A stretch of DNA of 36,820 bases from a virus, in IMG/VR virus record IMGVR_UViG_3300025889_000369, positions 1-36,820 of that record; one strand, 5' to 3'. The notes below the pieces were generated by a model. That model had not been told where the DNA came from, did not search any database, and saw only the letters and a list, made by a program, of their open reading frames with translations. The number at the start of each line of letters is the position of its first letter. Positions within the stretch are counted from its first letter, which is position 1. Shown one piece after another: positions 1,258-35,973 of the stretch. Position numbers and translations under genes: made by a program.

Positions 1258-4200
1258 ATGGCAATAATATATTCATATCCTGTAGTTCAACCTACAACTG
1301 ATGATTTAGTTTTAGGGACAGATGCAACAGACGCGTCGAAGCCAACTAAGAATTTTACAGTACAAAGTATTATTGACCTTGTAACTGTTTCTGGTAACGA
1401 TTTACAAGCGGTATTAAATAACGGTAACGTTGCTACAGGTAGAGACATTAATTTAACAAACAATAACTTTAGAGGTGGAAGTTTCATTACAACAGGTAAT
1501 GCAACTATAACAGGTACTATAGGTACTGGGTTTACACAAATAACAGCAGATGATTTCGTTGGTGATTTAACAGGTATAGTAAAAGCAGGGTCAAGCATTG
1601 AAAGCACGGTGACTGGTGTTACACAATCTCAAGGTGATAACAGTACTAAGTTAGCAACAACTGCTTATGTTGATGGTAAAGTTGATCCATCTGTGTTACA
1701 ATACTTAGGTGATTCAACTGGTCCTTTTGATCTAAACCTAATAAGTGATGATTTTAAAATAGCAGGTACAGCTAATGAAATAGAAACTACAGCAACTACA
1801 GTGGCTGGTAATGTAGGTACAGTGACTTTATCTTTCCCTACAGCTGGTGTAACACTACCTGACGGCTCAGTGGCTACAACCCAAGCATTAACCGATAATT
1901 CAACAAAAGTTGCAACAACCGCTTTTGTTCACGGTAAAAACGATGCTCAAACGTTAAATTTCAGTAACGGCTCTAACGCTAGTACAGTATTATTAAATAG
2001 TCAAACTTTCGTTGTTTCAGGAACAACTAATCAAATAGCGACAGCGACAACACCTCAAACAATAACTATTGGTTTAACAACTGATGTTACTATAGCAGGT
2101 ACATATACAGGTGCTACGTTTTCTGGAGATTTAAACGGTACGGTAAATACGGCCACAACAGGTACAACTCAGTCAGCTGGTGATAATTCAACTAAAATAG
2201 CTACAACAGCTTATGTAGATAATGCCGCTGGTGCTAAAATATTACAATACAAAGATAGTACGTCTACGGTACATGACTTAAATTTATCTGATGATGATCT
2301 TCAATTTAACGGGGATTCAAACATAACAGTTACAGCTGACGCTGTTTCAAGTAATGTGGGTGCAGTAACAGTTGATTTAAACAATGATGTTACTATATCA
2401 GGTACAATGCAAGCTGGTACACTTTCAGATGGAACTTTCTCTGGAACAGGTGGTACATATACAGGTGGTGTAAGCATTACATCTACAGATTTTGTAGGTG
2501 CTTTAACTGGTAATGCAGATACAGCTACGGCTTTAGCTTCTTCTGGAGCTATAGCACTTACAGGTGATACAACATCAACTGGTGGTCCATACACTTATAC
2601 TTCAGGTGGTGCGCTTAGTATAGCTACTACAATAGCTGATACCACAGTAACCGGTAAAGTATTAACTAATTTACCAACTGCAACATCTCAAGTTATAGCA
2701 GATTCAGATACTATATTAGAGGCTTTATCTTATTTACAAGGTCAAATCACTGGTATACCACAAGGTCTTGTATATAAAGGAACATGGAATGCTAGCACTA
2801 ACACACCAACACTTGCTAGTGGTACTGGTGTTACAGGTGAATTTTATATTGTAAGCGTTGCTGGTACTACGAACTTAGATGGTATTACAGATTGGCAAGT
2901 TGGTGACTGGGCTATATTTGTAGAAGTCGGGGCAACTGATACTTGGCAAAAAATAGATAACACTTCTGCTATACTTGGAAGTGGATCAGCTAATAAAATA
3001 GCTAAATGGACTGGATCTAATACTTTAGCAACTGGTCTTATATCAGATGATGGTGCAGATGTTACTATTGGTAACTCTGGTAATTTAATTGTTGAAGGTA
3101 ACACAACTCTTGGTAATGCCGATACAGATACTACAACAGTTAAAGGTCCAGGTGTTTTTGAAGAAACAACTCAATTTAACGTTGGTATTGGTTTAAGCTC
3201 CACACCTGACTATGGTACAGCTGGGCAAGTGTTAACATCTGGTGGTGGTTCTGCTACAGCAAACACATGGACAACACCTACTACAGGTACAGTTACAAGT
3301 GTAGGTGCTTCAATTGATGGTGATTCTTTAAGTATAGCAGGAAGCCCAGTAACAAGCTCAGGTACATTAGCATTTACTTTTCAAGGTGATAATACTCAAT
3401 ATATAGATGGTGCTGGTGATTTAACAACTTTTCCAACTGTAGATAATTATCAATACTGGATATTATCTGATGGTACAAATACAACTAATATAGCTTCAAC
3501 TGATACAGCTACGTTTTCTGGAGGTACATATATAACAGCCAGTGAATCAGCTGGTACTTTAACTATAGATCACGATGCTACGACTAGAGCAGATACAACA
3601 TCTACAGATGCACCTGCTTTTGGTGGAACTTTTGATGCGGTAACAAGTGTAACAAGTAATGCAACAGGACACGTTACAGCAATAGATGTTTCTACTGTAA
3701 CAATACCGGCTAACCCGGTTTTTGTTGGTCCTGCTGATGCAAGTACTGATGGGGTTGCTGGTATAGTTCCAGCTCCGGGTCAAGCTACTTATAATGGTGG
3801 ATATTTCTTAAGACAAGATGCAACGTGGGCTATTCCACCAAATGATGATGGTGTAACAGCAGTAACGGCAACAGCTCCAATATCTTCTTCAGGTGGTGAT
3901 ACACCAAACATAACTCATGATAATTCTGGTGTAACAGCTGGAACTTACGATAGTGTAACCGTTGATGCTAAAGGCCACGTAACAGGTGGTAGTAATCCTG
4001 GCGGTGACGGTGGTGGTATATTTTCTGGGGATCAAGCTGTTATTACAGCTTCAGCTTCTCTAGCATTTACTTTAAATAGAGCTACTACAGGAGCGTTAAT
4101 ATTTGATGTATGGTTAACTTCAGAAACAAGTACAGGAACTTCTGTAACTAAAAAATACACTGTTGCTCATGCTAATAATGCTACTCCAGTTTATAATAAA

Positions 4201-4377
4201 ATAATAGACACAGGACCAGTTGGATCAAATGATTTTCTAGTTACTTTCTTAAATGCAGGTTCTGGATTATCCGTTACATGTAATATACAAGCTGTTGGTA
4301 TTGCTCAAAATATAGGTTACACAGTTCAAGTCGGGCACGATAGTACAAATGCTCTTACATTCACTGCAGCATCATAA
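1258..4377 (+). CDS. Large modular tail-fibre protein (1039 aa)
   Basis: Extended fibre of low-complexity Thr/Gly/Ser/Asn-rich beta modules. Residues 1-45 repeat the SYP...LGT anchor of the preceding gene. The classic phage-fibre repeat NSTK-ATTA-V occurs three times, near residues 126-139, 213-225 and 308-321, each followed by a related beta stretch. Residues about 502-570 form the YKGTWNAST...WQVGDW...W-KID module seen in many phage and Bacteroidetes surface proteins. A VTVDAKGHVTGG motif at about 900-912 is also typical of tail fibres. The C-terminal ~120 residues look like a compact beta head, probably the receptor-contacting tip. It has no S74 chaperone domain, unlike two of the fibres that follow. 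Fibre role is well supported; receptor is unknown. Confidence 0.85.
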   Translation: MAIIYSYPVVQPTTDDLVLGTDATDASKPTKNFTVQSIIDLVTVSGNDLQAVLNNGNVATGRDINLTNNNFRGGSFITTGNATITGTIGTGFTQITADDFVGDLTGIVKAGSSIESTVTGVTQSQGDNSTKLATTAYVDGKVDPSVLQYLGDSTGPFDLNLISDDFKIAGTANEIETTATTVAGNVGTVTLSFPTAGVTLPDGSVATTQALTDNSTKVATTAFVHGKNDAQTLNFSNGSNASTVLLNSQTFVVSGTTNQIATATTPQTITIGLTTDVTIAGTYTGATFSGDLNGTVNTATTGTTQSAGDNSTKIATTAYVDNAAGAKILQYKDSTSTVHDLNLSDDDLQFNGDSNITVTADAVSSNVGAVTVDLNNDVTISGTMQAGTLSDGTFSGTGGTYTGGVSITSTDFVGALTGNADTATALASSGAIALTGDTTSTGGPYTYTSGGALSIATTIADTTVTGKVLTNLPTATSQVIADSDTILEALSYLQGQITGIPQGLVYKGTWNASTNTPTLASGTGVTGEFYIVSVAGTTNLDGITDWQVGDWAIFVEVGATDTWQKIDNTSAILGSGSANKIAKWTGSNTLATGLISDDGADVTIGNSGNLIVEGNTTLGNADTDTTTVKGPGVFEETTQFNVGIGLSSTPDYGTAGQVLTSGGGSATANTWTTPTTGTVTSVGASIDGDSLSIAGSPVTSSGTLAFTFQGDNTQYIDGAGDLTTFPTVDNYQYWILSDGTNTTNIASTDTATFSGGTYITASESAGTLTIDHDATTRADTTSTDAPAFGGTFDAVTSVTSNATGHVTAIDVSTVTIPANPVFVGPADASTDGVAGIVPAPGQATYNGGYFLRQDATWAIPPNDDGVTAVTATAPISSSGGDTPNITHDNSGVTAGTYDSVTVDAKGHVTGGSNPGGDGGGIFSGDQAVITASASLAFTLNRATTGALIFDVWLTSETSTGTSVTKKYTVAHANNATPVYNKIIDTGPVGSNDFLVTFLNAGSGLSVTCNIQAVGIAQNIGYTVQVGHDSTNALTFTAAS

Positions 4378-13117: not shown

Positions 13118-14674
13118 ATGTCAAATGCAATTGTAAAGAATCTGAACTTTGGTTTGGACGCTAAAAACAATGTGTTTGCTGGTATTACGAAACTTACACA
13201 AGCTGTTAGCTCCACATTAGGAGCTAGCGGTAAGTGTGTTATTCTAGAGGATACAACTGGCAAACCAATTATTACCAAAGATGGTGTAACCGTAGCTGAA
13301 TCAATAACGCTGCTAGATCCAGTGGAAAACATGGGTGCAACATTATTAAAAGAAGCTGCTAAAAAAACAGTGAGTGAAGCTGGTGACGGTACAACAACAG
13401 CAACGGTTTTAGCTCACGCTATATTAGAAGAAGCTTACAAGGTTTTAGATAAAGAAAACTCAAGGCAAATAAAAGAAGGTATTAATAAAGCTGTTAATGA
13501 TGTTGTTGATTATTTAAATAATATAGCAACACCGGTTAAAAATGATATGATCGATCAAGTGGCTACAATATCTACAAACAATGATCCTGTTCTTGGTAAA
13601 ATTATAGCTGATGCATTTAGATCAGTTAATCAAACAGGTGTTGTAATGATGGAGGTTTCAGATTTACCAGAAACAAGATTTGAAACAATAGATGGTATAC
13701 AATACAATAGAGGATTAAAAAACATACATTTTGTCACTGATCAAGCTACTAAAACAGCTGAGCTAGATAATCCATTAGTTTTATTAGTAGAGTCTGAAAT
13801 TGAAAATATAAGAAAAATACAAAACGTACTTGAATACGTTATAAAAAATAATAAATCATTACTTATTATAGCTGATGTAGATCAACAAGTTATGTCTGCT
13901 TTAGCTATGAATAAAATAAAAGGTAATATAAAGGTTAATGTTATTGATGCACCTATATACGGTGTTAACAAAAAAGAAACATTAAATGATTTAGCTTTAT
14001 TAACTGGAGCGACTATTATAAATGAAGACTTAGGTGATGACATAGATTTAATAGGCCCAGAACAATTAGGGCAATGTATTAAAAGTGTTAGTAATCAACA
14101 AGAGACTATAATTCATGTTGGTGAAGTATCTGAAGAAGTTAAAGGTTTAATAGAAGAAATAAAAAAGAAATTATTATCTACTAAAAATCCAAATGAAATA
14201 ATTCAATTAGAAACTAGATTAGCTAGATTATCAGGTAAAGTTGCTGTTGTAAAAGTTGGTGCTAATTCTGAAGTTGAATTACAAGAATTAAAAGATAGGG
14301 TGGAAGATGCTATATGTGCAACTAAAGCTGCTATTAAAGAAGGTATAGTTCCAGGTGGTGGAATTGCTTTATTAAACGCTTCGCAAAAAATTAAAACAAC
14401 TAATAAAGGTGAAAACATATTGTTGAAAGCTATACAGGCTCCATTTAAAACAATATTAAACAACGCTGGTATAGTTGATTATAGTTCATCTAAAACTGAA
14501 GGTAAAGGTTTAGATGTTGTTACAGGAAATATGGTAAATATGATTGAGTCAGGGATTATTGATCCTTTGCTTGTAACTAAAAGTGCTTTAAAAAATGCAG
14601 CTTCTGTTGCTACCACTATTTTATCAACCGATTGTGTAATTAATAATCTTAGAATTAATGAAAGCAATAGGTAA
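13118..14674 (+). CDS. groEL: Phage chaperonin GroEL (Cpn60), 518 aa
   Basis: Full-length group I chaperonin subunit that would form an ATP-driven folding ring. Equatorial motifs are present: TLGASGK, IITKDGVTVA (Asp55, equivalent of E. coli Asp52), EAGDGTTTATVLA (Asp90, equivalent of Asp87), RVEDAICATKAAIKEG (Asp397, equivalent of Asp398) followed by PGGGIALL. The apical region (RGLKNIHFVTD ... LLIIADVDQQ ... KVNVIDAP) is divergent. It is about 30 residues shorter than bacterial GroEL and lacks the Gly-Gly-Met tail. DPVENMGA resembles Bacteroidetes GroEL, fitting acquisition from such a host. The last 17 bases overlap groES, so the order is groEL-groES, reverse of the bacterial operon. All three ATPase aspartates are kept, so it is probably active. 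Confidence 0.95.
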   Translation: MSNAIVKNLNFGLDAKNNVFAGITKLTQAVSSTLGASGKCVILEDTTGKPIITKDGVTVAESITLLDPVENMGATLLKEAAKKTVSEAGDGTTTATVLAHAILEEAYKVLDKENSRQIKEGINKAVNDVVDYLNNIATPVKNDMIDQVATISTNNDPVLGKIIADAFRSVNQTGVVMMEVSDLPETRFETIDGIQYNRGLKNIHFVTDQATKTAELDNPLVLLVESEIENIRKIQNVLEYVIKNNKSLLIIADVDQQVMSALAMNKIKGNIKVNVIDAPIYGVNKKETLNDLALLTGATIINEDLGDDIDLIGPEQLGQCIKSVSNQQETIIHVGEVSEEVKGLIEEIKKKLLSTKNPNEIIQLETRLARLSGKVAVVKVGANSEVELQELKDRVEDAICATKAAIKEGIVPGGGIALLNASQKIKTTNKGENILLKAIQAPFKTILNNAGIVDYSSSKTEGKGLDVVTGNMVNMIESGIIDPLLVTKSALKNAASVATTILSTDCVINNLRINESNR

Positions 14675-14918
14675 AAATTTAATAGTAAAAATAAATAAAC
14701 AAGGTATATCTGAAACAAAAGGTGGACTTTTTTTAGCTGAAAAACAACGTGAAGATATAAGGTATACTGAAGGTGTTATAGTTTCAGCTGGTAGTGATGT
14801 AACTGGAATAAAGCAAAATGATGTTATTTATTTTGATAAAAATAATTCTCATCAAATAGAAATAAAAAAAGAAATCTACACTGTGGTTCACATCAACCAT
14901 GTTGTAGTTGTATTATGA
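14658..14918 (+). CDS. groES: Phage co-chaperonin GroES (Cpn10), 86 aa
   Basis: Cpn10 fold features in order: N-terminal strand MKAIGKNLIVK, a mobile-loop segment at about residues 16-33 (GISETKGGLFLAEKQ), the EGVIVSAGSDV turn, the GD-like INQNDVIYFDK region (here IKQNDVIYFDK), and the terminal strand HVVVVL. The protein would cap the GroEL ring. It starts inside the 3' end of groEL and its stop overlaps the next gene by 4 bases (ATGA), so all three are translationally coupled. Bacterial GroES is usually ~95 aa, so this is a compact version. The mobile loop lacks the usual Ile-Val-Leu tripeptide in plain form (it has Gly-Leu-Phe-Leu), which may mark pairing with the phage GroEL. Confidence 0.88.
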   Translation: MKAIGKNLIVKINKQGISETKGGLFLAEKQREDIRYTEGVIVSAGSDVTGIKQNDVIYFDKNNSHQIEIKKEIYTVVHINHVVVVL

Positions 14919-15358
14919 GACTAGAAGCTTCTGATATTAGAGATTTAAATCTTTTAAAACATTATAGAATAATCAGGAAGTGGGCTTGTAAAAATAACAA
15001 CTTAAATGATGCAGATTTAGAATTACTTATATATTTCGATTGCATGGGTCTTTTTACTAAAGAAGATTTTAAAATCGGTACTTATTCTTATAGCTGGGAT
15101 AATAGACGCTGGAACAGATTGTTAAAAGAGGGTTGGATAATCGTATGGAGAAAACATAATCGTACAACTCAAAAATACAACATATACAAAGTTTCTTTCA
15201 AGTGTAAACAGCTTATAAGTAGAATGTACCGAATTATGCTTGGAATAGAGGATATACCAACCTCATTACATAGAAATAAAATAATGAAAGGTAAAACCTA
15301 TATAGACAAAGTAATGATCACGTCTATAAATAATGTTAACAAAGATAAAAACAGATAA
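14915..15358 (+). CDS. Winged-helix-like protein, function unknown (147 aa)
   Basis: The order of predicted elements suits a winged helix-turn-helix: helix at about 31-45 (LNDADLELLIYFDCMGL), helix 48-55, a third helix 61-73 (WDNRRWNRLLKEG), then a beta wing WIIVWRKHNRTTQKYNIYKVS (residues 74-94), then a helix (CKQLISRMYRIMLG) and a basic tail. Basic overall, consistent with DNA binding. Similar proteins occur in marine phage virion or late regions without a known role. It overlaps groES by 4 bases. It could be a regulator of late genes, but nothing in the sequence shows the target. Confidence 0.72.
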   Translation: MRLEASDIRDLNLLKHYRIIRKWACKNNNLNDADLELLIYFDCMGLFTKEDFKIGTYSYSWDNRRWNRLLKEGWIIVWRKHNRTTQKYNIYKVSFKCKQLISRMYRIMLGIEDIPTSLHRNKIMKGKTYIDKVMITSINNVNKDKNR

Positions 15359-20036: not shown

Positions 20037-20263
20037 TGTCATCTGTTATTAGAAAAATCAGTATCGGATCTGATTATAAAACTGATGCGATGCATTATTC
20101 TTTGTCTCAATCTGTATATGGAGGTCACACTATTTCCAATATAATCTTTGATACAAAAGATAATTCTTATAACATTTACATTAAAAAAAACAACGAGGTA
20201 TTGCCATGGAAGAAATTTAATTCTAACATGGCTATATCTGTTGAGTATGATTTAGAATATTAA
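20036..20263 (+). CDS. Small conserved phage protein, function unknown (75 aa)
   Basis: MSSVIRKISIGSDYKTDAMH, then beta strands (HTISNIIFDTKDNSYNIYI), then LPWKKFNSNMAISVEYDLEY. The 'VIRKISIG-DYK--AMHY' start and 'WK-FN-NM--S-EY' end are a combination I recognise from marine phage genomes, without known function. It overlaps both neighbours by one base (TAATG), so it is translated with them just upstream of packaging genes. Confidence 0.72.
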   Translation: MSSVIRKISIGSDYKTDAMHYSLSQSVYGGHTISNIIFDTKDNSYNIYIKKNNEVLPWKKFNSNMAISVEYDLEY

Positions 20264-20868
20264 TGAAAAGCATTTATGATTTTATCGTTAAACCATTAGG
20301 TCAGCGATATAATAATGAAGTTAAGATAGGTGACAAAAGCCTTATAATTAACACTAAGCTTGAAAGTTTTAAATCTGTAAATAATATAGCAAAAGTTATT
20401 GAAGTTCCTTTAGCATACAAAACATCAATTAAAAAAGGTGATAAAATAATGATACATCATAATGTTTTTAGAAGATTTTATGATATTAGAGGTAACGAAA
20501 AAAATAGCAAGTCGTTTTTCAAAGATAATTTATATTTTGTTCAACCAGATCAAATATATCTTTACAAAAATAAAAACAAATGGATATCATTTGGTGATAG
20601 ATGTTTTGTAAATCCTCTTAGAAATAATGATGATATAAACGCTAATATAGAAGAAAGCCTTATTGGTATATTAAAATATAGTAATAATTCATTAGAAGCG
20701 CTAGGAATAAACGAGGGAGACGTTGTAGGTTACAAACCGTTTGGTGAGTTTGATTTTTTAGTTGACGGCAAGCGTTTATACTGTATGAAATCAAATGATA
20801 TTGTAATTAAATATGAACGTCAAGGAAACGAAAAAGAATATAATCCAAGCTGGGCACAAAGCAGTTGA
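20263..20868 (+). CDS. Double GroES-like beta-barrel protein (201 aa)
   Basis: Two consecutive segments each follow the Cpn10 pattern. First, residues 4-102: IYDFIVKPLG, a loop-like stretch (NNEVKIGDKSLIINTKLE), NIAKVIEVP ... IKKGDKIMIH, ending NLYFVQPDQIYLY. Second, residues 107-186: WISFGDRCFVNPLR, a loop, SLIGILKYS ... INEGDVVGYKPFG, then DGKRLYCMKSNDIVIKYE. The tail is EYNPSWAQSS. The 'FVxPL ... G-V ... GD-V ... DI' order recalls bacterial GroES ('DRV-VKP ... GEVVAVG ... VGDKVLF ... DDI'). It could be a specialised co-chaperonin (compare T4 gp31) or an unrelated barrel used in packaging, as it lies next to the terminase genes. Fold assignment is inference from pattern. Its 3' end overlaps the next gene by 56 bases. 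Confidence 0.6.
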   Translation: MKSIYDFIVKPLGQRYNNEVKIGDKSLIINTKLESFKSVNNIAKVIEVPLAYKTSIKKGDKIMIHHNVFRRFYDIRGNEKNSKSFFKDNLYFVQPDQIYLYKNKNKWISFGDRCFVNPLRNNDDINANIEESLIGILKYSNNSLEALGINEGDVVGYKPFGEFDFLVDGKRLYCMKSNDIVIKYERQGNEKEYNPSWAQSS

Positions 20869-21088
20869 AGAACTTATAAAAGTAGCTAAAGAAGCTATTG
20901 TTGATTCTGATGATGATATATCAGCTGATAGATTAAAAAATGCTGCTGCTACTAAAAAACTAGCTATATTTGATGCTTTTGAAATACTTAACCGTATTAA
21001 AGAAGAAGAAGATATGTTAAACAATAAACCTAAAGAAGAAGCTAAAGCTAAACCTTTTGGAGGTTTTGCCGAAAGAAGATCTAAGTAA
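20813..21088 (+). CDS. Candidate small terminase subunit (91 aa)
   Basis: Mostly helical: KKNIIQAGHKAVEELIKVAK, then DDDISADRLKNAAATKKLAI and FDAFEILNRIKEEEDML, then a basic disordered tail (KAKPFGGFAERRSK). It sits immediately upstream of the large terminase, sharing one base with it (TAATG), the usual place of the small subunit that selects DNA for packaging. There is no clear helix-turn-helix. The 'ISADRLKNAAATKK-AIFDAFEIL-RI' block is conserved before terL in related marine phages in my memory. Alternative: a terminase-associated accessory factor. The start lies inside the previous gene, as an A-rich context is available there. Confidence 0.6.
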   Translation: MNVKETKKNIIQAGHKAVEELIKVAKEAIVDSDDDISADRLKNAAATKKLAIFDAFEILNRIKEEEDMLNNKPKEEAKAKPFGGFAERRSK

Positions 21089-23292
21089 TGTACGAACAAA
21101 CTTTATACAAGGTAATAAATCCTATAAAGCCTCACGTAGTTAAAAAAATAAATAGATCAAAAAAGTGGGAGTACGGTTACAATAAAGAATACGATGTTAT
21201 TGTAATTAGTAGAACAGGTCAGATTGGTGAAATATACGAAATACAAAATTTAAAAATAGCTTTACCAAAAGAAAAAGATGTTTTTAATAAAACTGATAAA
21301 TGGCAAGCTCAAGAATACCCTAAAGAGTTAAAAAGAATAAAAACAGTATTTGATTGGAAACAATATCCAGAAGAGTTTAAAGAAAAATGGTATGCGTATA
21401 TTGATAAAGAATTTACCAAACGCCACGAAGGTTATTGGTTCACTAATAAAGGTAAAGCTACTTATATTACTGGTACTCATTATATGTACTTGCAGTGGTC
21501 CAAAATTGATGTTGGGCAACCAGATTTTAGGGAAGCAAACAGATTATTCTTTATATTCTGGGAAGCTTGCAAAGCCGATAGAAGATGTTATGGAATGTGC
21601 TACCTCAAAAACAGACGGTCTGGTTTTTCATTCATGGCATCAGGCGAAGCTGTCAACCTTGCCACTATCTCTAGTGATGCTAGATACGGTGTCTTATCAA
21701 AGTCTGGGGCTGATGCAAAGAAAATGTTTACCGATAAAATTGTACCAATTTCCGTCAACTACCCTTTTTTCTTCAAGCCGATTCAAGACGGTATGGATCG
21801 ACCAAAAACAGAACTTGCTTATAGAGTTCCCGCTAGTAGGTTTACAAGAAGAAAACTAGATACTAACGAACAGTTAGAAGAATTAGAAGGTTTAGATACA
21901 ACTATTGACTGGAAAAACACTGGAGATAATAGTTACGATGGTGAAAAATTAAAACTACTTGTACACGATGAATCTGGTAAGTGGGAAAGACCTGACAATA
22001 TATTAAATAACTGGAGGGTTACAAAAACTTGTTTACGTTTGGGTTCTAGAATTATTGGTAAGTGTATGATGGGTTCAACATCAAACGCTTTAGATAAAGG
22101 AGGTAGAAATTATAAAAAAATATACGATGATTCAGACGTTACCAGAAGAAACCGCAATGGGCAGACTAGCTCGGGATTATATAGCTTGTTCATACCTATG
22201 GAGTGGAATTACGAAGGATACATCGATTCTTATGGATTACCTGTCTTCGAGACACCCAAGAAAGAAACGAAGGGAATTGATGGCTACCCTATAGATATAG
22301 GCGTAATAGAACATTGGGAAAACGAAGTTGAAGGTCTTAAAAATGATCCAGATGCTTTAAATGAATTTTATAGACAATTTCCACGTACTGAAAAACATGC
22401 TTTTAGAGATGAAACAAAACAATCTTTATTTAATCTAAGTAAAATATATGAACAAATAGATTATAATGAAGATTTAAGAAACTCAAATGTAATCACACAG
22501 GGTAATTTTCAGTGGATAGATGGGATAAAAGATACAAACGTGCGCTTTACACCTAATAAACAAGGAAGGTTTTATGTATCATGGGTTCCAGAACCAAATC
22601 AGCAAAATAGAGTTGTTATTAAAAACGGTATTAAGTATCCTGGTAATGAACACATGGGTGCTTTTGGATGTGATAGTTATGATATATCTGGAACTGTTGA
22701 TGGAAGAGGATCAAAAGGATCGCTTCACGGATTAACTAAATTTAGTATGGAAAGCGCTCCACCTAATTTGTTTTTCTTAGAATATATATCAAGACCTCAA
22801 ACAGCAGAAACATTTTTTGAAGATGTATTAATGGCTTTAGTTTTTTACGGTATGCCATTGCTTGCTGAAAATAATAAACCAAGATTATTATACCATTTAA
22901 AAAGAAGAGGTTACAGAGGTTTTTCTATGAATAGACCTGATAAAACAATGCATAAGTTGTCTGTAACTGAAAAAGAAATAGGTGGTATACCAAATTCAAG
23001 TGAAGATGTAAAACAAGCCCATGCTGCAGCAATAGAATCTTATATTGAAATGTTTGTAGGCTATAACAACGAACAATATGGTTCTATGTATTTTCAAAGA
23101 ACATTAGAAGATTGGGCAGCGTTTGATATAAATAATAGAACTAAACATGATGCATCAATAAGTTCTGGTTTAGCTATTATGGCTTGCAATAAAAATAAAT
23201 ATAGACCTGTACCTGAAGTTATTAAACAAAAAGTTTCTTTAAGCTTTGCTAAATATGACAACAAAGGTTTTAAATCAAAAATAATTAATTAA
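21088..23292 (+). CDS. terL: Large terminase subunit, TerL (734 aa)
   Basis: DNA-packaging motor with ATPase and nuclease parts. The ATPase has a Walker A-like NRRSGFS at 175-181 and Walker B LKLLVHDE with Asp294-Glu295. The C-terminal RNase-H-type nuclease part has a first acidic residue in FGCDSYD (Asp529) and a second in PLLAENN (Glu594), followed by LLYHLKRRGYRG, with a possible third in the HDASIS region. At 734 residues it is longer than typical (~450-600), with an N-terminal extension of about 110 residues that contains a degenerate beta segment. It would dock on the portal encoded directly downstream with no gap. Confidence 0.92.
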   Translation: MYEQTLYKVINPIKPHVVKKINRSKKWEYGYNKEYDVIVISRTGQIGEIYEIQNLKIALPKEKDVFNKTDKWQAQEYPKELKRIKTVFDWKQYPEEFKEKWYAYIDKEFTKRHEGYWFTNKGKATYITGTHYMYLQWSKIDVGQPDFREANRLFFIFWEACKADRRCYGMCYLKNRRSGFSFMASGEAVNLATISSDARYGVLSKSGADAKKMFTDKIVPISVNYPFFFKPIQDGMDRPKTELAYRVPASRFTRRKLDTNEQLEELEGLDTTIDWKNTGDNSYDGEKLKLLVHDESGKWERPDNILNNWRVTKTCLRLGSRIIGKCMMGSTSNALDKGGRNYKKIYDDSDVTRRNRNGQTSSGLYSLFIPMEWNYEGYIDSYGLPVFETPKKETKGIDGYPIDIGVIEHWENEVEGLKNDPDALNEFYRQFPRTEKHAFRDETKQSLFNLSKIYEQIDYNEDLRNSNVITQGNFQWIDGIKDTNVRFTPNKQGRFYVSWVPEPNQQNRVVIKNGIKYPGNEHMGAFGCDSYDISGTVDGRGSKGSLHGLTKFSMESAPPNLFFLEYISRPQTAETFFEDVLMALVFYGMPLLAENNKPRLLYHLKRRGYRGFSMNRPDKTMHKLSVTEKEIGGIPNSSEDVKQAHAAAIESYIEMFVGYNNEQYGSMYFQRTLEDWAAFDINNRTKHDASISSGLAIMACNKNKYRPVPEVIKQKVSLSFAKYDNKGFKSKIIN

Positions 23293-25695
23293 ATGATTAA
23301 TACAAGTGTTAACAGCGCGTTTCCAAGTCAGATGGTATCTGAAGAGGAAAAGAAAAGTTTAGAGTATGGATTGCTGGTAGGGCAAGCTATTGAGTATGAG
23401 TGGTTTAGAGGTGGAAGAGTTAATAGTAACAAATGGGTGACAGGTTATCAAAATTATAATAGACTAAGATTATACGCTAGAGGTGAACAATCTGTTCAAA
23501 AATATAAAGATGAATTATCTATAAATGGTGATTTATCTTATTTAAATTTAGACTGGAAACCAGTGCCTATTATACCTAAATTTGTTGATTTAGTTGTAAA
23601 CGGTATAGCATCTAAAGAATATGAATTAAAAGCATATGCTCAAGATCCTTTTTCACAAAAACAAAGAACTAATTATGCCTCAAGCATAATGCGAGACATG
23701 ACAGCAAAACCTTTGCTTCAAGAAATTAAAGGTAAATTAGGTGCAGATTTATTTTCAACTTCAAATCCAGAAAAGCTACCTGGATCTAAAGAAGAATTAG
23801 AAATTCATATGCAATTAAACTACAAGCAATCTGTAGAAATTGCTGAAGAAGAAGCAATAAACAACACTTTAGCTTTTAACAAATATCAATTAATAAACAA
23901 AAGAGTAATAGATGATATAGTTATAATAGGTATAGGAGCTGTTAAAACATCTTTTAATAAATCTGAAGGTGTAGTTGTAGATTATGTAGATCCAGCTAAT
24001 TTAGTTTATTCATATACTAATGATCCTAATTTTGAAGATATATATTATGTTGGTGAAATTAAATCTTTAACATTAGCTGAAATTAAAAAACAATTTCCTT
24101 ATTTAACTAAAGATGAATTAGAAAGACTAGCTAAATATCCAGGTCGTCAAGGGTATGTTGCTCAACCTAATTATGATAATGATTTAATACAGGTTTTATA
24201 CTTTGAATATAAAACATTTATAGACCAAGTATTTAAAATAAAAAAGACTGATCAAGGTTTAGAAAAAGCTTTAGTAAAATCAGACACGTTTAATCCACCA
24301 ACTAGTGATAATTTTGATAGAGTTTCAAGATCTATTGAAGTTTTATTTAGTGGTGTAAAAGTTATGGGTGTTCCACAAATGCTAGAATGGAAGCTTTCTG
24401 AAAACATGACAAGACCTAAAAGTGATTTAACTAAAGTAAACATGAATTACGCTATATGCGCACCTCATATATATCAAGGACGTATTGAATCACTAGTTAG
24501 CCGTATAACAGGTTATGCTGATATGATACAATTAACATCGTTAAAACTACAACAAGTAATTGCTAGAATGGTTCCAGATGGTGTTTTTGTAGATGTTGAT
24601 GGTTTAGCAGAGGTTGATTTAGGTAATGGTACTAATTATAATCCACAAGAAGCATTAAATATGTATTTTCAAACTGGTAGTATAGTTGGTAGATCATTAA
24701 CACAAGATGGTGATCCTAATAGAGGTAAAGTACCTATTCAAGAACTTCAATCATCTAGCGCAAATGGAAAAATAGCATCACTTGTAAATACATATCAATA
24801 TTATTTACAAATGATAAGAGACGTAACGGGTCTCAATGAAGCACGAGATGGCAGTTTACCAGACAAGGACGCTTTAGTCGGATTGCAAAAAATGGCTGCC
24901 AATGCTTCTAATATAGCTACTAAACATATTGTTAATGCCAGTTTGTATTTAACATTGAGAACTTGTGAAAACATATCGTTAAGATTAGCTGATGCTTTAG
25001 AGTTTGATTTAACTAAACAAGCTTTAATGCAAAGTATATCATTAACTAACACGAGAAATATTGAAGAATTAAAAAATCTTCATTTATATGATTTTGGTAT
25101 TTATTTAGAACTAGAACCTGATGATGAAGAAAAAGCTAAATTAGAGCAAAATATACAAGTTGCTTTACAATCTGGTCAAATATATTTAGAAGATGCTATT
25201 GATATTAGAGAAGTTAAAAATATACAATTAGCAAATCAAATATTAAAATATAGAAGAATACAAAAACAAAAAGCAGATCAGCAGGCTCAACAAGCTCAAA
25301 TACAAGCACAAGCTCAAGCAAACATGCAACAATCTGAGCAAGCCGCTATGAATGAAGTTCAAAAACAAGAGGCATTAGCTCAAACAGAAATACAAATAGA
25401 GCAAGCTAAATCTCAATTTGAAATACAAAGGATGGAGCAAGAAGCATTAATTAAAAAACAATTAATGGCTGAAGAATTTAATTATCAATTACAATTAGCT
25501 CAAGCTAAAATAAAAACTGATAGAGAAAAAGAACAATTTATAGAAGATCGTAAAGATAAAAGAACTAAAATACAAGCAACGCAACAATCTAAAATGATTG
25601 AGCAACGTCAAAATGACTTGTTACCTACAGATTTTGAATCAGCAGGTATGGATAATTTAGGCGGATTTGGTTTAGAGCAATTTGAACCGCAATAA
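23293..25695 (+). CDS. Portal protein (800 aa)
   Basis: Dodecameric channel through which DNA enters the head. Early residues (SLEYGLLVGQAIEYEWFRGG, then YNRLRLYARGEQ) lead into WKPVPIIPKFVDLVVNGIA followed by a 'K-YAQDPFS-KQR' segment, the common portal entry pattern. A region with alternating strands and helices (IVIIGIGAVKTSF ... VDYVDPANLVYSYT) and the MIRDVTGLNEARDGS block are also portal-like. From about residue 657 the protein becomes a long Gln/Ala/Glu-rich helix (QAQQAQIQAQAQAN and on to ~780), an unusually long C-terminal coiled-coil extension, perhaps a barrel. Gene order terL-portal-scaffold-capsid supports the call. Confidence 0.9.
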   Translation: MINTSVNSAFPSQMVSEEEKKSLEYGLLVGQAIEYEWFRGGRVNSNKWVTGYQNYNRLRLYARGEQSVQKYKDELSINGDLSYLNLDWKPVPIIPKFVDLVVNGIASKEYELKAYAQDPFSQKQRTNYASSIMRDMTAKPLLQEIKGKLGADLFSTSNPEKLPGSKEELEIHMQLNYKQSVEIAEEEAINNTLAFNKYQLINKRVIDDIVIIGIGAVKTSFNKSEGVVVDYVDPANLVYSYTNDPNFEDIYYVGEIKSLTLAEIKKQFPYLTKDELERLAKYPGRQGYVAQPNYDNDLIQVLYFEYKTFIDQVFKIKKTDQGLEKALVKSDTFNPPTSDNFDRVSRSIEVLFSGVKVMGVPQMLEWKLSENMTRPKSDLTKVNMNYAICAPHIYQGRIESLVSRITGYADMIQLTSLKLQQVIARMVPDGVFVDVDGLAEVDLGNGTNYNPQEALNMYFQTGSIVGRSLTQDGDPNRGKVPIQELQSSSANGKIASLVNTYQYYLQMIRDVTGLNEARDGSLPDKDALVGLQKMAANASNIATKHIVNASLYLTLRTCENISLRLADALEFDLTKQALMQSISLTNTRNIEELKNLHLYDFGIYLELEPDDEEKAKLEQNIQVALQSGQIYLEDAIDIREVKNIQLANQILKYRRIQKQKADQQAQQAQIQAQAQANMQQSEQAAMNEVQKQEALAQTEIQIEQAKSQFEIQRMEQEALIKKQLMAEEFNYQLQLAQAKIKTDREKEQFIEDRKDKRTKIQATQQSKMIEQRQNDLLPTDFESAGMDNLGGFGLEQFEPQ

Positions 25696-31620: not shown

Positions 31621-34600
31621 ATGGCTGAAATTAAAAATAGTTTTCTAAGATCCAAGATGAATAAAGACTTGGATGATAGATTAATACCTAATGGTGAATA
31701 TAGAGATGCGCAGAACATATCTGTAGGAAAGTCAGAAGATGACGATATAGGTGCTTTAGAAACTATTTTAGGTAATACTGAAAAAACTTTTACTATAACA
31801 CCAGCCTTACCTAGTGATATACAGACTATAGGTTATTTAACTGATGAATACACTCAGACTATATTTGTTTTTGCAACTAACTATACAGATTCAAATCCTA
31901 ATGTTACACCTACGTATGCACCATCTGGTAAAAGATGTATAATATATTCTTGGTCACCTAAAAATCCCGCTACAGCTCAAGTTATAGCTGACGGTGTATT
32001 TTTAAATTTTTCTACAACAAATCCAGTTCAGGCTAGTTTAATTGAAAATTTATTATTTTTTACTGATAATAGAAATCAACCTAGAAAAGTTAATATAAAC
32101 CAACCTTCTGGTTATTATACAGACGAAGTTCAATTGTCTGTAGCAAAATATAATCCTTATTTACCTATTTCTTTACTTAAAAAAACCACTGGAATAGTAG
32201 AGGCTAGTCCTGCTCCAACAACAACAACTTTTGTGGTTAATGAAAACACAGGTATTTTAACAGGCATGACGGCTGTTAGCACAAGTTCATCTGGCGTTGT
32301 TAAAGTAGCTCCAGCTGATTTTGTTACAGTAATAACAGCTACAACTGCGGCTGGAAAAACAACAGTTACATTGTCAAAAGCTATTACAATTCCTTTGGCT
32401 GGAGATATTTTTACGTTTTTAATATCAACTATGACAAATAAATCTAGTGATCCTAATTGGCCTGGTGATCCTGATTATTTAGAGGGTAGATATGTTAGAT
32501 TTAGCTATAGATATAGATTTGATGACGGTGAATACTCTATATTTGCACCATTTACACAAATAGCTTATATACCTAAGCAAAAAGGTTATTTTAAAAACGA
32601 AGATGAAGATAATGCTTTTAGAAGCACTATTGTCGCTTGGATGGAAAACAGTGTTAACAATATTGAACTTCTTGTAACGCTACCTTGTAAAGGATCTAAA
32701 CTTTTTTCTGATTTTAAAATAAAATCATTAGACATACTATATAAAGAATCAGATCAAACAAGCGTTAAAGTTTTAGAAACTGTCCCTGTTAGTGATATAA
32801 GCAATGATTCTGTAAACAATATATATACTTACGAATACCAATCTAGAAAACCTTATAAAACGCTACCATCCGACCAAACTATAAGAGTTTATGATAAAGT
32901 TCCTGTTAGAGCTTTAGCACAAGAAACTGCAGGTAACAGAATAATGTATGGTAATTTTAGAGACACGCATTCTGCTCCTGACGTTATAAATTATGATGTT
33001 AAAGTGATAGACAAAGGTTCTATTTCTAATGGAACAAGTTGGATAGAATATCCCAATAATTCTTTAAAACAAAATAGAAATTACCAAGTTGGTTTCATAC
33101 TTTCAGATAAGTATGGTAGACAATCGCCAGTAATACTTTCGCCGGTTAGCTCTAACGCTGCTAATAATTTTTTAGGATCTACTATATTTAATTCATATAA
33201 CACAAGCACTTCTAATATGAAAGCTTGGTTTGGTAATACTTTACAACTTAGTGTTACGCAAGGTATATTGTCTGGAACAAATAGTTTACCTAATTTTAGC
33301 ACAGGTGAACCAGGTCTTTACGCTATAGCAACAAGTGATAACGGTTTTGCAGTAAAACAAACACCTGTTGCAACAATAACAGATACTTTATATACGTTTA
33401 CTTTAGATAGCACAGCATATCCACAGAACATAACTATTCCGGTTGAAGGTGATTATTTAAGAGGAGAATACATAGATTATGTAAAAGTTACAAACGTAAA
33501 TAGCACTAGCGCGCCTGATTATATAATAACAACTAACGGAAGAGTAAATTCTAGTTATTTAAATGACACAACTTTATCAGGAACATCAGCTGATTTAAAC
33601 TTTGCTTACACGTTAAATCCAGTTGGTTGGTATTCTTATAAAATAGTTGTAAAACAAACAGAGCAAGAGTATTATAACGCGTATCTTCCTGGTATAGTAA
33701 ATGGTTACTTTGGTCATACTGAATATTTTGGTGATGAAGTTAATCAAACGGCTTTTTCTACGTTATTTGGAGACAATATAAATAAAATACCTAGAGATTT
33801 ATCAGAGGTTGGACCAAATCAAAAACAATACAGAAGTAGTGTTTTACTTTCGGGTAGAGTTACTAATGTTGATTTTGCAACCACACCTTTCAATGCTCAA
33901 TACTTTCCTGGAACAAGTAATCCTTACCACAGTGTGGATGCTGTAGGAGAAGAATCTGTTTTAGCTGGTGGTGGAACATTGAGTCAACATCCTAGTATAT
34001 ATCAAAACGAAACAGATCCTTCTTTAATAAGAATTTCTACAAATAGACAAGCAATAGGTCAACAAGATACTCAAGCTGGTAACGCAGACTTTCCTGTGTT
34101 AGCTATATATGAAACAGATCCACAAGAATCTTTATTAGATATATTCTGGGAAACTGGAACTGTTGGTTTAATATCAGATTTAAACGCAGATGTTTTAACT
34201 GGTTATGATGGGCCAAGCGCTTTCACAGCTTTAAATTATTCACAACCTGAAAGCAAAGCTTCAGGGGATCCAATAACAGATTGGTTTTATCCAATATCAA
34301 ATGAAGGAACACAGTTTGACGCAGCTTATCCTACAACAGCAACAATGAGTGTTATATCGGTTAGAGAAGATGCTGTTGCAAATAATTACTTTACATTAGA
34401 ACAAGATACTAACGCGGCTAGCCCAACATATAAAGCGTATAGATTGAAAACTGTTGGTAATTTTGTTTATTTAGATGATAGTATAACACAAGATGTATAT
34501 CAATTTAGTATTACAGTTACTGTAGACTCGTCGTCTTCATTGGCACCTGGCGAAGTTAATACAATAATAGTAAATGGAGCTTTAAGTAACGCAGCACCTT

Positions 34601-35973
34601 CTTTTGTAAATAGCCCATTACCTAATATAATAGCAACTGTAGACGAAACTGTTTTGCCAAATCAAGATATTAGCGCTGTTAATGGTTCTTCTTATGTTGG
34701 AACTGAAAGAGTTGAACAATTAAAATGGTCTATTTTATCTGGAAATCCAACTGGATTAGATGGTCAACCTTCTTTTGAAATATTAGATCCTACAATCGGT
34801 CAGTTAACACAAAGAGCTAATAACACACCTAATGGACAACACGCTATAGTGTTAAAAATAGAAGATGCTAATGGAGATGTTGCAGACGGTTCTTTATCAG
34901 CCACCGCAACTCAAAACATATTTATAGGACCTGAGCCTGCAAATAACGAAATAAAGTCTACACCCTGTGTAACTGGTCCAATAGACACAGGTCAACCAGT
35001 AGGTTCTCAAGCAGCGCTTATTACAGATTACAATGGCGGAACAGTTACAGGTGTTTGGTATCTTTCTGCTGCAGCTTTACAACCTGGATATACTAGTGGC
35101 ACTGTTAATTCAGATATACCAATAACACCTAGCGCTGCTACTTCTATTACTAACACATTATTTAGATTAGGTTCAGGTGCGTTAACACAAGGTCAAATAG
35201 TATTCTCATTAAATTCTGGAATGGTGTGGGCTAACAATCCTCCACAAGCCGGATTACAAGGTGCTGTTTCTTGGAAAGTTTGGCATAGATCAAGTAGTAG
35301 CTCAGCTTGGGCTCATATTACGGATTTAAACAATGAAAGCATAAATCCATCCGGCGCACCAATATCAGTTGCTCTTGATACTTCTAATACCGGTAGTTTT
35401 GATAATTTTTATAATCAAATAATATTAGGTTTTGGACAAACGGGTGAATATTGTATTGCAGCTATAAATGCAAAAAGTAGTACAGCTAATCAGCAAAGCC
35501 AAGCTTTAACATGTTGGGTTAACTCTAACGATTTAAATTATAGTACTTGTGTTATAGAAGATGGCACAAACATAACTGGTGGTGTAGCCAGAACAAGTTA
35601 CGAGTATGGTATGAGTACAAGTCCTGGGTCAGATTATAATTGTTCTTATGGAACTTCACCAGCTTGGTCAAACGTACCCTATGGTCAATATGTTCCTCAG
35701 TTTTTTAATTCATCTACATTATCAACGCCATATGCTTTTGCTGATGCTGGTAATGGAATAAGTGGTTATTTAGCTTTTAAAACACAAGGTAGTTCTCCAT
35801 TTGATGATCCTTCTAGTTATAGATATAGTTTTTCAACTAGATTTACCACAGCAGACGGTAAAGTTTATAAACCAAACCCTTGGTCTCAGTGTTATATTAG
35901 AAACTGTGGAAACACAGCATCTCCACCCCTTAGTGGTACCTGTACACCTTTACAAATGGAATTCCCTTACTAG
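31621..35973 (+). CDS. Large tail hub / stabilisation-like protein (1450 aa)
   Basis: The N-terminus FLRSKMNKDLDDRLIPNGEY, then RDAQNISVGKSEDDDIGALE and GN, has the 'MNKDLD-RL-PNGEYRDA-NI' pattern at the start of large tail proteins with propeller-like beta structure (compare P22 gp10-type stabilisation proteins); this points to a neck or tail hub. Residues about 198-270 hold the same small beta module as other virion proteins here. Around 990-1110 there are cadherin-like strands (QDISAVNGSSYVGTERVEQL ... LKIEDANGDVADGS). The last 350 residues are Cys-bearing and Ser/Asn-rich (YNCSYGTSPAWSNVPYGQY), perhaps exposed. It ends with CTPLQMEFPY. Function class is moderately supported; the exact position in the tail is unknown. 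Confidence 0.68.
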   Translation: MAEIKNSFLRSKMNKDLDDRLIPNGEYRDAQNISVGKSEDDDIGALETILGNTEKTFTITPALPSDIQTIGYLTDEYTQTIFVFATNYTDSNPNVTPTYAPSGKRCIIYSWSPKNPATAQVIADGVFLNFSTTNPVQASLIENLLFFTDNRNQPRKVNINQPSGYYTDEVQLSVAKYNPYLPISLLKKTTGIVEASPAPTTTTFVVNENTGILTGMTAVSTSSSGVVKVAPADFVTVITATTAAGKTTVTLSKAITIPLAGDIFTFLISTMTNKSSDPNWPGDPDYLEGRYVRFSYRYRFDDGEYSIFAPFTQIAYIPKQKGYFKNEDEDNAFRSTIVAWMENSVNNIELLVTLPCKGSKLFSDFKIKSLDILYKESDQTSVKVLETVPVSDISNDSVNNIYTYEYQSRKPYKTLPSDQTIRVYDKVPVRALAQETAGNRIMYGNFRDTHSAPDVINYDVKVIDKGSISNGTSWIEYPNNSLKQNRNYQVGFILSDKYGRQSPVILSPVSSNAANNFLGSTIFNSYNTSTSNMKAWFGNTLQLSVTQGILSGTNSLPNFSTGEPGLYAIATSDNGFAVKQTPVATITDTLYTFTLDSTAYPQNITIPVEGDYLRGEYIDYVKVTNVNSTSAPDYIITTNGRVNSSYLNDTTLSGTSADLNFAYTLNPVGWYSYKIVVKQTEQEYYNAYLPGIVNGYFGHTEYFGDEVNQTAFSTLFGDNINKIPRDLSEVGPNQKQYRSSVLLSGRVTNVDFATTPFNAQYFPGTSNPYHSVDAVGEESVLAGGGTLSQHPSIYQNETDPSLIRISTNRQAIGQQDTQAGNADFPVLAIYETDPQESLLDIFWETGTVGLISDLNADVLTGYDGPSAFTALNYSQPESKASGDPITDWFYPISNEGTQFDAAYPTTATMSVISVREDAVANNYFTLEQDTNAASPTYKAYRLKTVGNFVYLDDSITQDVYQFSITVTVDSSSSLAPGEVNTIIVNGALSNAAPSFVNSPLPNIIATVDETVLPNQDISAVNGSSYVGTERVEQLKWSILSGNPTGLDGQPSFEILDPTIGQLTQRANNTPNGQHAIVLKIEDANGDVADGSLSATATQNIFIGPEPANNEIKSTPCVTGPIDTGQPVGSQAALITDYNGGTVTGVWYLSAAALQPGYTSGTVNSDIPITPSAATSITNTLFRLGSGALTQGQIVFSLNSGMVWANNPPQAGLQGAVSWKVWHRSSSSSAWAHITDLNNESINPSGAPISVALDTSNTGSFDNFYNQIILGFGQTGEYCIAAINAKSSTANQQSQALTCWVNSNDLNYSTCVIEDGTNITGGVARTSYEYGMSTSPGSDYNCSYGTSPAWSNVPYGQYVPQFFNSSTLSTPYAFADAGNGISGYLAFKTQGSSPFDDPSSYRYSFSTRFTTADGKVYKPNPWSQCYIRNCGNTASPPLSGTCTPLQMEFPY

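Follow-up and report, generated by a model that had tools for sequence, protein, structure and literature searches.

The window analysed here is the whole of a 36,820-base virus record of IMG/VR (IMGVR_UViG_3300025889_000369), and its plus strand carries two chaperonin genes in direct succession. The first is groEL (13118-14674), encoding a group I chaperonin of 518 aa with ATPase aspartates 55, 90 and 397 and without a GGM tail, as recognized by Pfam, PHROGs and NCBIfam; the second is groES (14658-14918), encoding a Cpn10 co-chaperonin of 86 aa, as recognized by Pfam, PHROGs and a predicted model with its fold match. The two genes share 17 nt (14658-14674, the groEL stop codon counted in), which are read in two frames as NESNR followed by the stop and as MKAIGK. 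Coordinates, strand, order and overlap in the first-pass annotation were all exact when rechecked. That annotation overlooked a third gene on the same strand, which encodes 147 aa (14915-15358) and overlaps groES by 4 nt. None of 126 related loci lacks it, and its product is better kept than GroES (median identity 79% vs 55%); in the elemo phages, Panino, MW202828 and phi38:1 the homologous gene is found at another place or on the opposite strand. Further downstream, again on the plus strand, are the genes for the terminase large subunit (21088-23292) and the portal protein (23293-25695). The virus very probably infects flavobacteria in a marine setting; relatives of its terminase occur in phages of Flavobacterium, Cellulophaga, Tenacibaculum and Maribacter, which makes a marine flavobacterium the most likely host.

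How close is the phage GroEL to the bacterial protein? Pfam Cpn60_TCP1 (PF00118) covers residues 26-509 with an E-value of 4e-62 and 210.9 bits against a cut-off of 34.3, PHROGs assigns chaperonin GroEL with an E-value of 9e-139, and two GroEL subfamily cut-offs of NCBIfam are exceeded (for example PRK00013, 477 vs 397 bits), while that of the GroEL equivalog TIGR02348 is missed (463.6 vs 582.1 bits). The protein is thus best classed as a divergent group I chaperonin, for which we do not claim equivalence to bacterial GroEL. Its anatomy was judged from alignment, and structure models cover the two co-chaperonins. The three aspartates said to be kept correspond to D52, D87 and D398 of Escherichia coli GroEL and do not vary in any of 29 viral relatives; the nucleotide-site residues K51, D52, D87, T89-91, D398, G415 and D495 (E. 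coli numbering) are likewise conserved in all 29 family members, and the ATPase site is intact. The apical surface, which holds substrates and the GroES loop, is on the other hand altered to residues fixed in the family: in E. coli numbering, Y199 is replaced by Leu and Y203 by His in 28 of 29 members each, and L234 by Gln, V263 by Ala and V264 by Met in all 29, at positions that are nearly uniform in the sampled bacteria. Among the ring-contact positions, A109 is mostly Asp, Thr or Asn, E434 is deleted in every member, and S463 and V464 are mostly replaced. Judged by these positions, ring-ring contacts of the E. coli type are largely lost, and the cycle may therefore not be the one known for GroEL; by analogy with phage chaperonins that have single-ring states (reviewed in PMC5934643), the contact between rings may be weak. 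In comparison with E. coli GroEL there is no apical insertion that could be a built-in lid, and a separate groES adjoins. The Gly-Gly-Met tail, present in 74 of 80 sampled bacterial GroELs, is lacking in the phage protein as had been noted.

The phage GroES matches Pfam Cpn10 over residues 2-84 (E-value 4e-10; 40 bits vs a cut-off of 21.1) and the PHROGs family of co-chaperonin GroES (E-value 1e-10), and reaches none of the NCBIfam GroES equivalog cut-offs, the best score being 25.9 vs 122 bits; it can be regarded as a divergent member of Cpn10. Its AlphaFold2 model, with a pLDDT of 83.5, matches Cpn10/GroES chains and T4 gp31. The mobile loop (residues 19-32, 14712-14753), the low-confidence part of the model, contains Gly-Gly-Leu-Phe-Leu with the hydrophobic triplet at residues 24-26. 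Across 49 relatives L24 and L26 are invariant, and the triplet is LLL in 35 and LFL in 14. The first-pass annotation noted that a plain Ile-Val-Leu is missing, which is correct to the letter, although Gly-Gly is still followed by a hydrophobic triplet. Bacterial triplets themselves vary (III in 27 and IVL in 15 of 78, besides others), and flavobacteria carry LYI or IFI. The phage triplet is within this range and makes a weak argument, and we rejected the idea that a change in the mobile loop signifies altered specificity. The roof loop (residues 44-54, 14787-14819) is shortened to 11 residues; Bacteroidota have 15 here and most other bacteria 20. It is known that gp31 has no roof loops, which is believed to help accommodate the larger capsid protein gp23 (PMC6318259). 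A phage-specific, gp31-like loss was considered and also rejected, since the roof of Bacteroidota is already 15 rather than 20 residues long; part of the shortening is common to the phage and its likely hosts. An 11-residue roof loop like that of the phage is found in four bacterial sequences too, mostly from Campylobacterota.

The arrangement of the two genes is a property of the lineage. A scan of viral contigs yielded 80 loci with a GroEL 70-100% identical to that of the window, and in all 80 groES comes after groEL with an overlap of 17 or 20 nt. When these loci were combined with those fetched via the second co-chaperonin described below and with reference phages, so that some contigs are counted twice, the order groEL-groES was found in all 133 entries in which both genes were recognized. 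Of these, 106 entries have an overlap of 17 nt, 15 of 20 nt, nine of 1 nt and one of 4 nt; in the remaining two the genes are separated by a gap. The 17- or 20-nt overlap, shared by 121 of the 133 entries with a nearly identical sequence, is not a matter of chance. Where the residue is the same, the fraction of codons that differ drops from 0.40 on average to 0.12 over the final ten columns of groEL, as double coding requires. A conserved RNA element 5′ of groES was also considered; the signal, low synonymous change just upstream of the overlap, is weak and may be explained by AT-rich codon use. With median dN/dS values of 0.19 for groEL and 0.27 for groES, both genes are genuine and under purifying selection. 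As a control, one genome per bacterial and archaeal species was scanned: among the matches listed, groES comes first in 77 of 78 bacterial loci with both genes, and the order in the window is indeed the opposite of that in bacteria. The reversed order is therefore real, but it is weak as an argument, being a marker of the lineage already annotated in Flavobacterium elemo phages. Only one sampled bacterial locus, on the Planctomycetia contig CALMPF010000033.1, has a Cpn10-like ORF after groEL.

It is to be added that the window encodes a second co-chaperonin-like protein, also overlooked in the first reading. This protein of 201 aa (20263-20868, plus strand), with probable tandem GroES-like domains, matches PHROGs phrog_13932, co-chaperonin GroES (E-value 4.7e-27), and its gene lies directly upstream of the DNA-packaging genes. 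Homologues are located just 5′ of the terminase gene in elemo, Panino, phi38:1 and MW202828. All 43 related loci long enough to include this region have the gene, groEL is found upstream in 42 of 43 loci having both the gene and at least 7.5 kb of upstream sequence, and the median dN/dS of the protein is 0.23. The predicted model consists of two GroES-like halves, with a pLDDT of only 72 and a pTM of 0.71. When this model was compared with solved structures by Foldseek, the best match was to Cpn20, a two-domain protein, in 7ekq; it spans the full length with an E-value of 4e-5 and is to be read with the low pLDDT in mind. Pfam Cpn10 stays below its cut-off and touches the C-terminal half only, and a profile search against sequences of solved structures gave nothing but chance hits, leaving the fold comparison as the informative one. 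The model thus makes a tandem co-chaperonin probable, not proven. Chloroplast Cpn20 is a known precedent with two domains (PMC5780408); the phage protein resembles it in its probable tandem of two GroES-like domains, and differs from it in that the identity is 13% and the loop of its second domain has no hydrophobic triplet. In some homologues (L094, L096, L116 and L119) the protein ends three codons early, with SWA and a stop where the window has Gln. Within the 3′ end of the gene starts an ORF of 91 aa (20813-21088), which overlaps it by 56 nt. This ORF is kept in 42 of 42 loci with a median identity of 78%, and the overlap shows a strong reduction of synonymous change, so that it probably is real coding in two frames.

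What would such genes do for the virus? It is very likely that groEL and groES form a chaperonin pair owned by the phage, kept by selection and specific to its lineage. We consider it probable, with good though not full confidence, that they constitute the phage's own group I chaperonin, which folds phage proteins largely independently of host GroES. GroEL subunits would assemble into an ATP-driven ring, and GroES would be translated right after GroEL from the same message through coupling across the 17-nt overlap. The short GroES would form a heptameric lid docking via the Gly-Gly-Leu-Phe-Leu mobile loop, presumably with specificity for its cognate ring, and the pair would fold phage proteins in infection, most likely large head or tail proteins. 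The two-domain protein encoded before the terminase might then serve as an alternative lid. Two proteins of the window are possible large clients: one of 1450 aa (31621-35973), which has no Pfam match, and one of 1039 aa (1258-4377), which has no PHROGs match. The family matches, the invariant ATPase residues, the fixed apical changes, the GroES fold with its mobile loop, the low dN/dS values (0.19 and 0.27), the kept order and overlap, the separate viral clade and the detection of phi38:1 GroEL (see below for both) all speak for this interpretation, while the lost ring-ring contact positions and the divergence of GroES speak against it. The first-pass annotation had proposed a self-contained machine tuned to phage proteins. 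A self-contained machine is no more than plausible, and the phage has a second co-chaperonin-like gene; the tuning is putative, and its one basis is the family-fixed apical residues at positions where bacteria are nearly uniform.

It might be possible instead that phage and host parts work together: host GroEL would be capped by the phage GroES or the 201-aa protein in the manner of T4 gp31, or the phage GroEL would use host GroES, or both. The mobile-loop triplet resembles that of flavobacterial GroES, and gp31 demonstrates that phages do so (PMC6318259), but where GroEL touches the GroES loop, the phage and bacterial proteins have different apical residues, which are fixed in the phage family, and groEL and groES are always kept together; we regard such hybrid use as unlikely. 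Somewhat less likely still is that the chaperonin mainly serves something other than the folding of virion proteins, for example that it protects enzymes of the host or the phage under stress, or has some other, moonlighting function. In Cellulophaga baltica infected with phi38:1, the phage GroEL was detected by mass spectrometry with methylated lysines, in infected cells as well as in the free-virion sample (PMC13288928). Its presence in cells means that a related phage chaperonin is made during infection, and its presence in the virion sample would fit a role of this kind, as would the position of groEL near tail and lysis genes and not beside capsid genes. The complete ATPase site and the paired co-chaperonin, however, point to folding.

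One may go further and imagine a large lineage of marine flavobacterial phages with a private chaperonin and two lids, the small GroES and a Cpn20-like tandem lid encoded with the packaging genes, in which the chamber takes on a different size or symmetry for certain virion proteins according to the lid chosen, with a GroEL that may be single-ring. This extension is tentative, and we hold it to be possible rather than probable. Of the leads from this analysis, the probable tandem co-chaperonin encoded in these genomes is of most interest: if it caps GroEL, it would be a viral counterpart of chloroplast Cpn20. Throughout a marine phage lineage, a private GroEL/GroES cassette that looks functional has been retained, with residues at the lid and substrate contacts that are specific to the family. 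Why do some phages carry a full chaperonin and others borrow that of the host? This old question becomes testable.

Where, then, did the phage genes come from? In a maximum-likelihood tree, a branch (98/96) separates the GroELs of groEL-first viruses (23 of 23) from those of all 29 bacteria, whereas the GroELs of Bacteroides phage DAC19, Acinetobacter phage MD-2021a and the Vibrio phages are placed among the bacterial ones. Branches are long among the reference phages, which makes the joins of elemo, Panino and MW202828 unsure. From this clade and the fixed order it follows that the GroEL of groEL-first viruses forms a viral lineage that is old and has a gene order of its own; gene order reportedly tracks the phylogeny of viral GroELs. 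The best bacterial GroEL among the matches listed is 43% identical to the phage protein. The statement that the pair is not a host remnant is therefore well supported, by the separate clade, this low identity, purifying selection and the fixed context. A groE operon recently captured from the host, or decaying, deserves hardly any credence, because the nearest neighbours among the matches listed and the gene order, when checked, showed neither a host operon nor the usual order, the frames are open with low dN/dS, and we found no point in favour of it. Ancient capture of groE is likely.

Phage GroEL/GroES pairs are already on record. Some phages encode both proteins (PMC7185714), and GroEL was found in environmental genomes, 36 in number, that probably belong to phages of marine Flavobacteriaceae (PMC5332604). 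Close in arrangement are the Flavobacterium elemo phages (MT497078 and relatives, Elemovirus), annotated in GenBank with groEL directly followed by groES and with a "chaperonin cpn10" gene just 5′ of the terminase gene; they differ in that their GroEL is 40-41% identical, the overlap is 1 nt instead of 17, and the pair is encoded on the other strand than the adjoining genes. Podoviridae ctfjg026 (MW202828; Manatee Spring podovirus) shares the order, a terminase 63% identical and a homologue of the tandem co-chaperonin, but has a 4-nt gap in place of the overlap and a GroEL 36% identical. In Maribacter phage Panino, a groES homologue annotated as a hypothetical protein (3982-4248) follows groEL after about 120 nt. 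Cellulophaga phage phi38:1 (Pervagoviridae, Callevirus) has GroEL, Cpn10 and a long co-chaperonin-like gene before the terminase gene as in the window; its groES comes first with a gene in between, and its GroEL stands outside the groEL-first clade. Flavobacterium immuto phages also carry both genes, and their GroEL is the most similar among phage records (44%), whereas they have the usual bacterial order, groES first, and a GroEL placed beside bacteria in the tree. T4 gp31 resembles the phage GroES in its GroES-like fold and in having no long roof loop; unlike the latter it has no phage GroEL as a partner and caps that of the host. Thus, the pair in the window adds a further member to a known kind of viral gene pair, here kept by a whole virus lineage.
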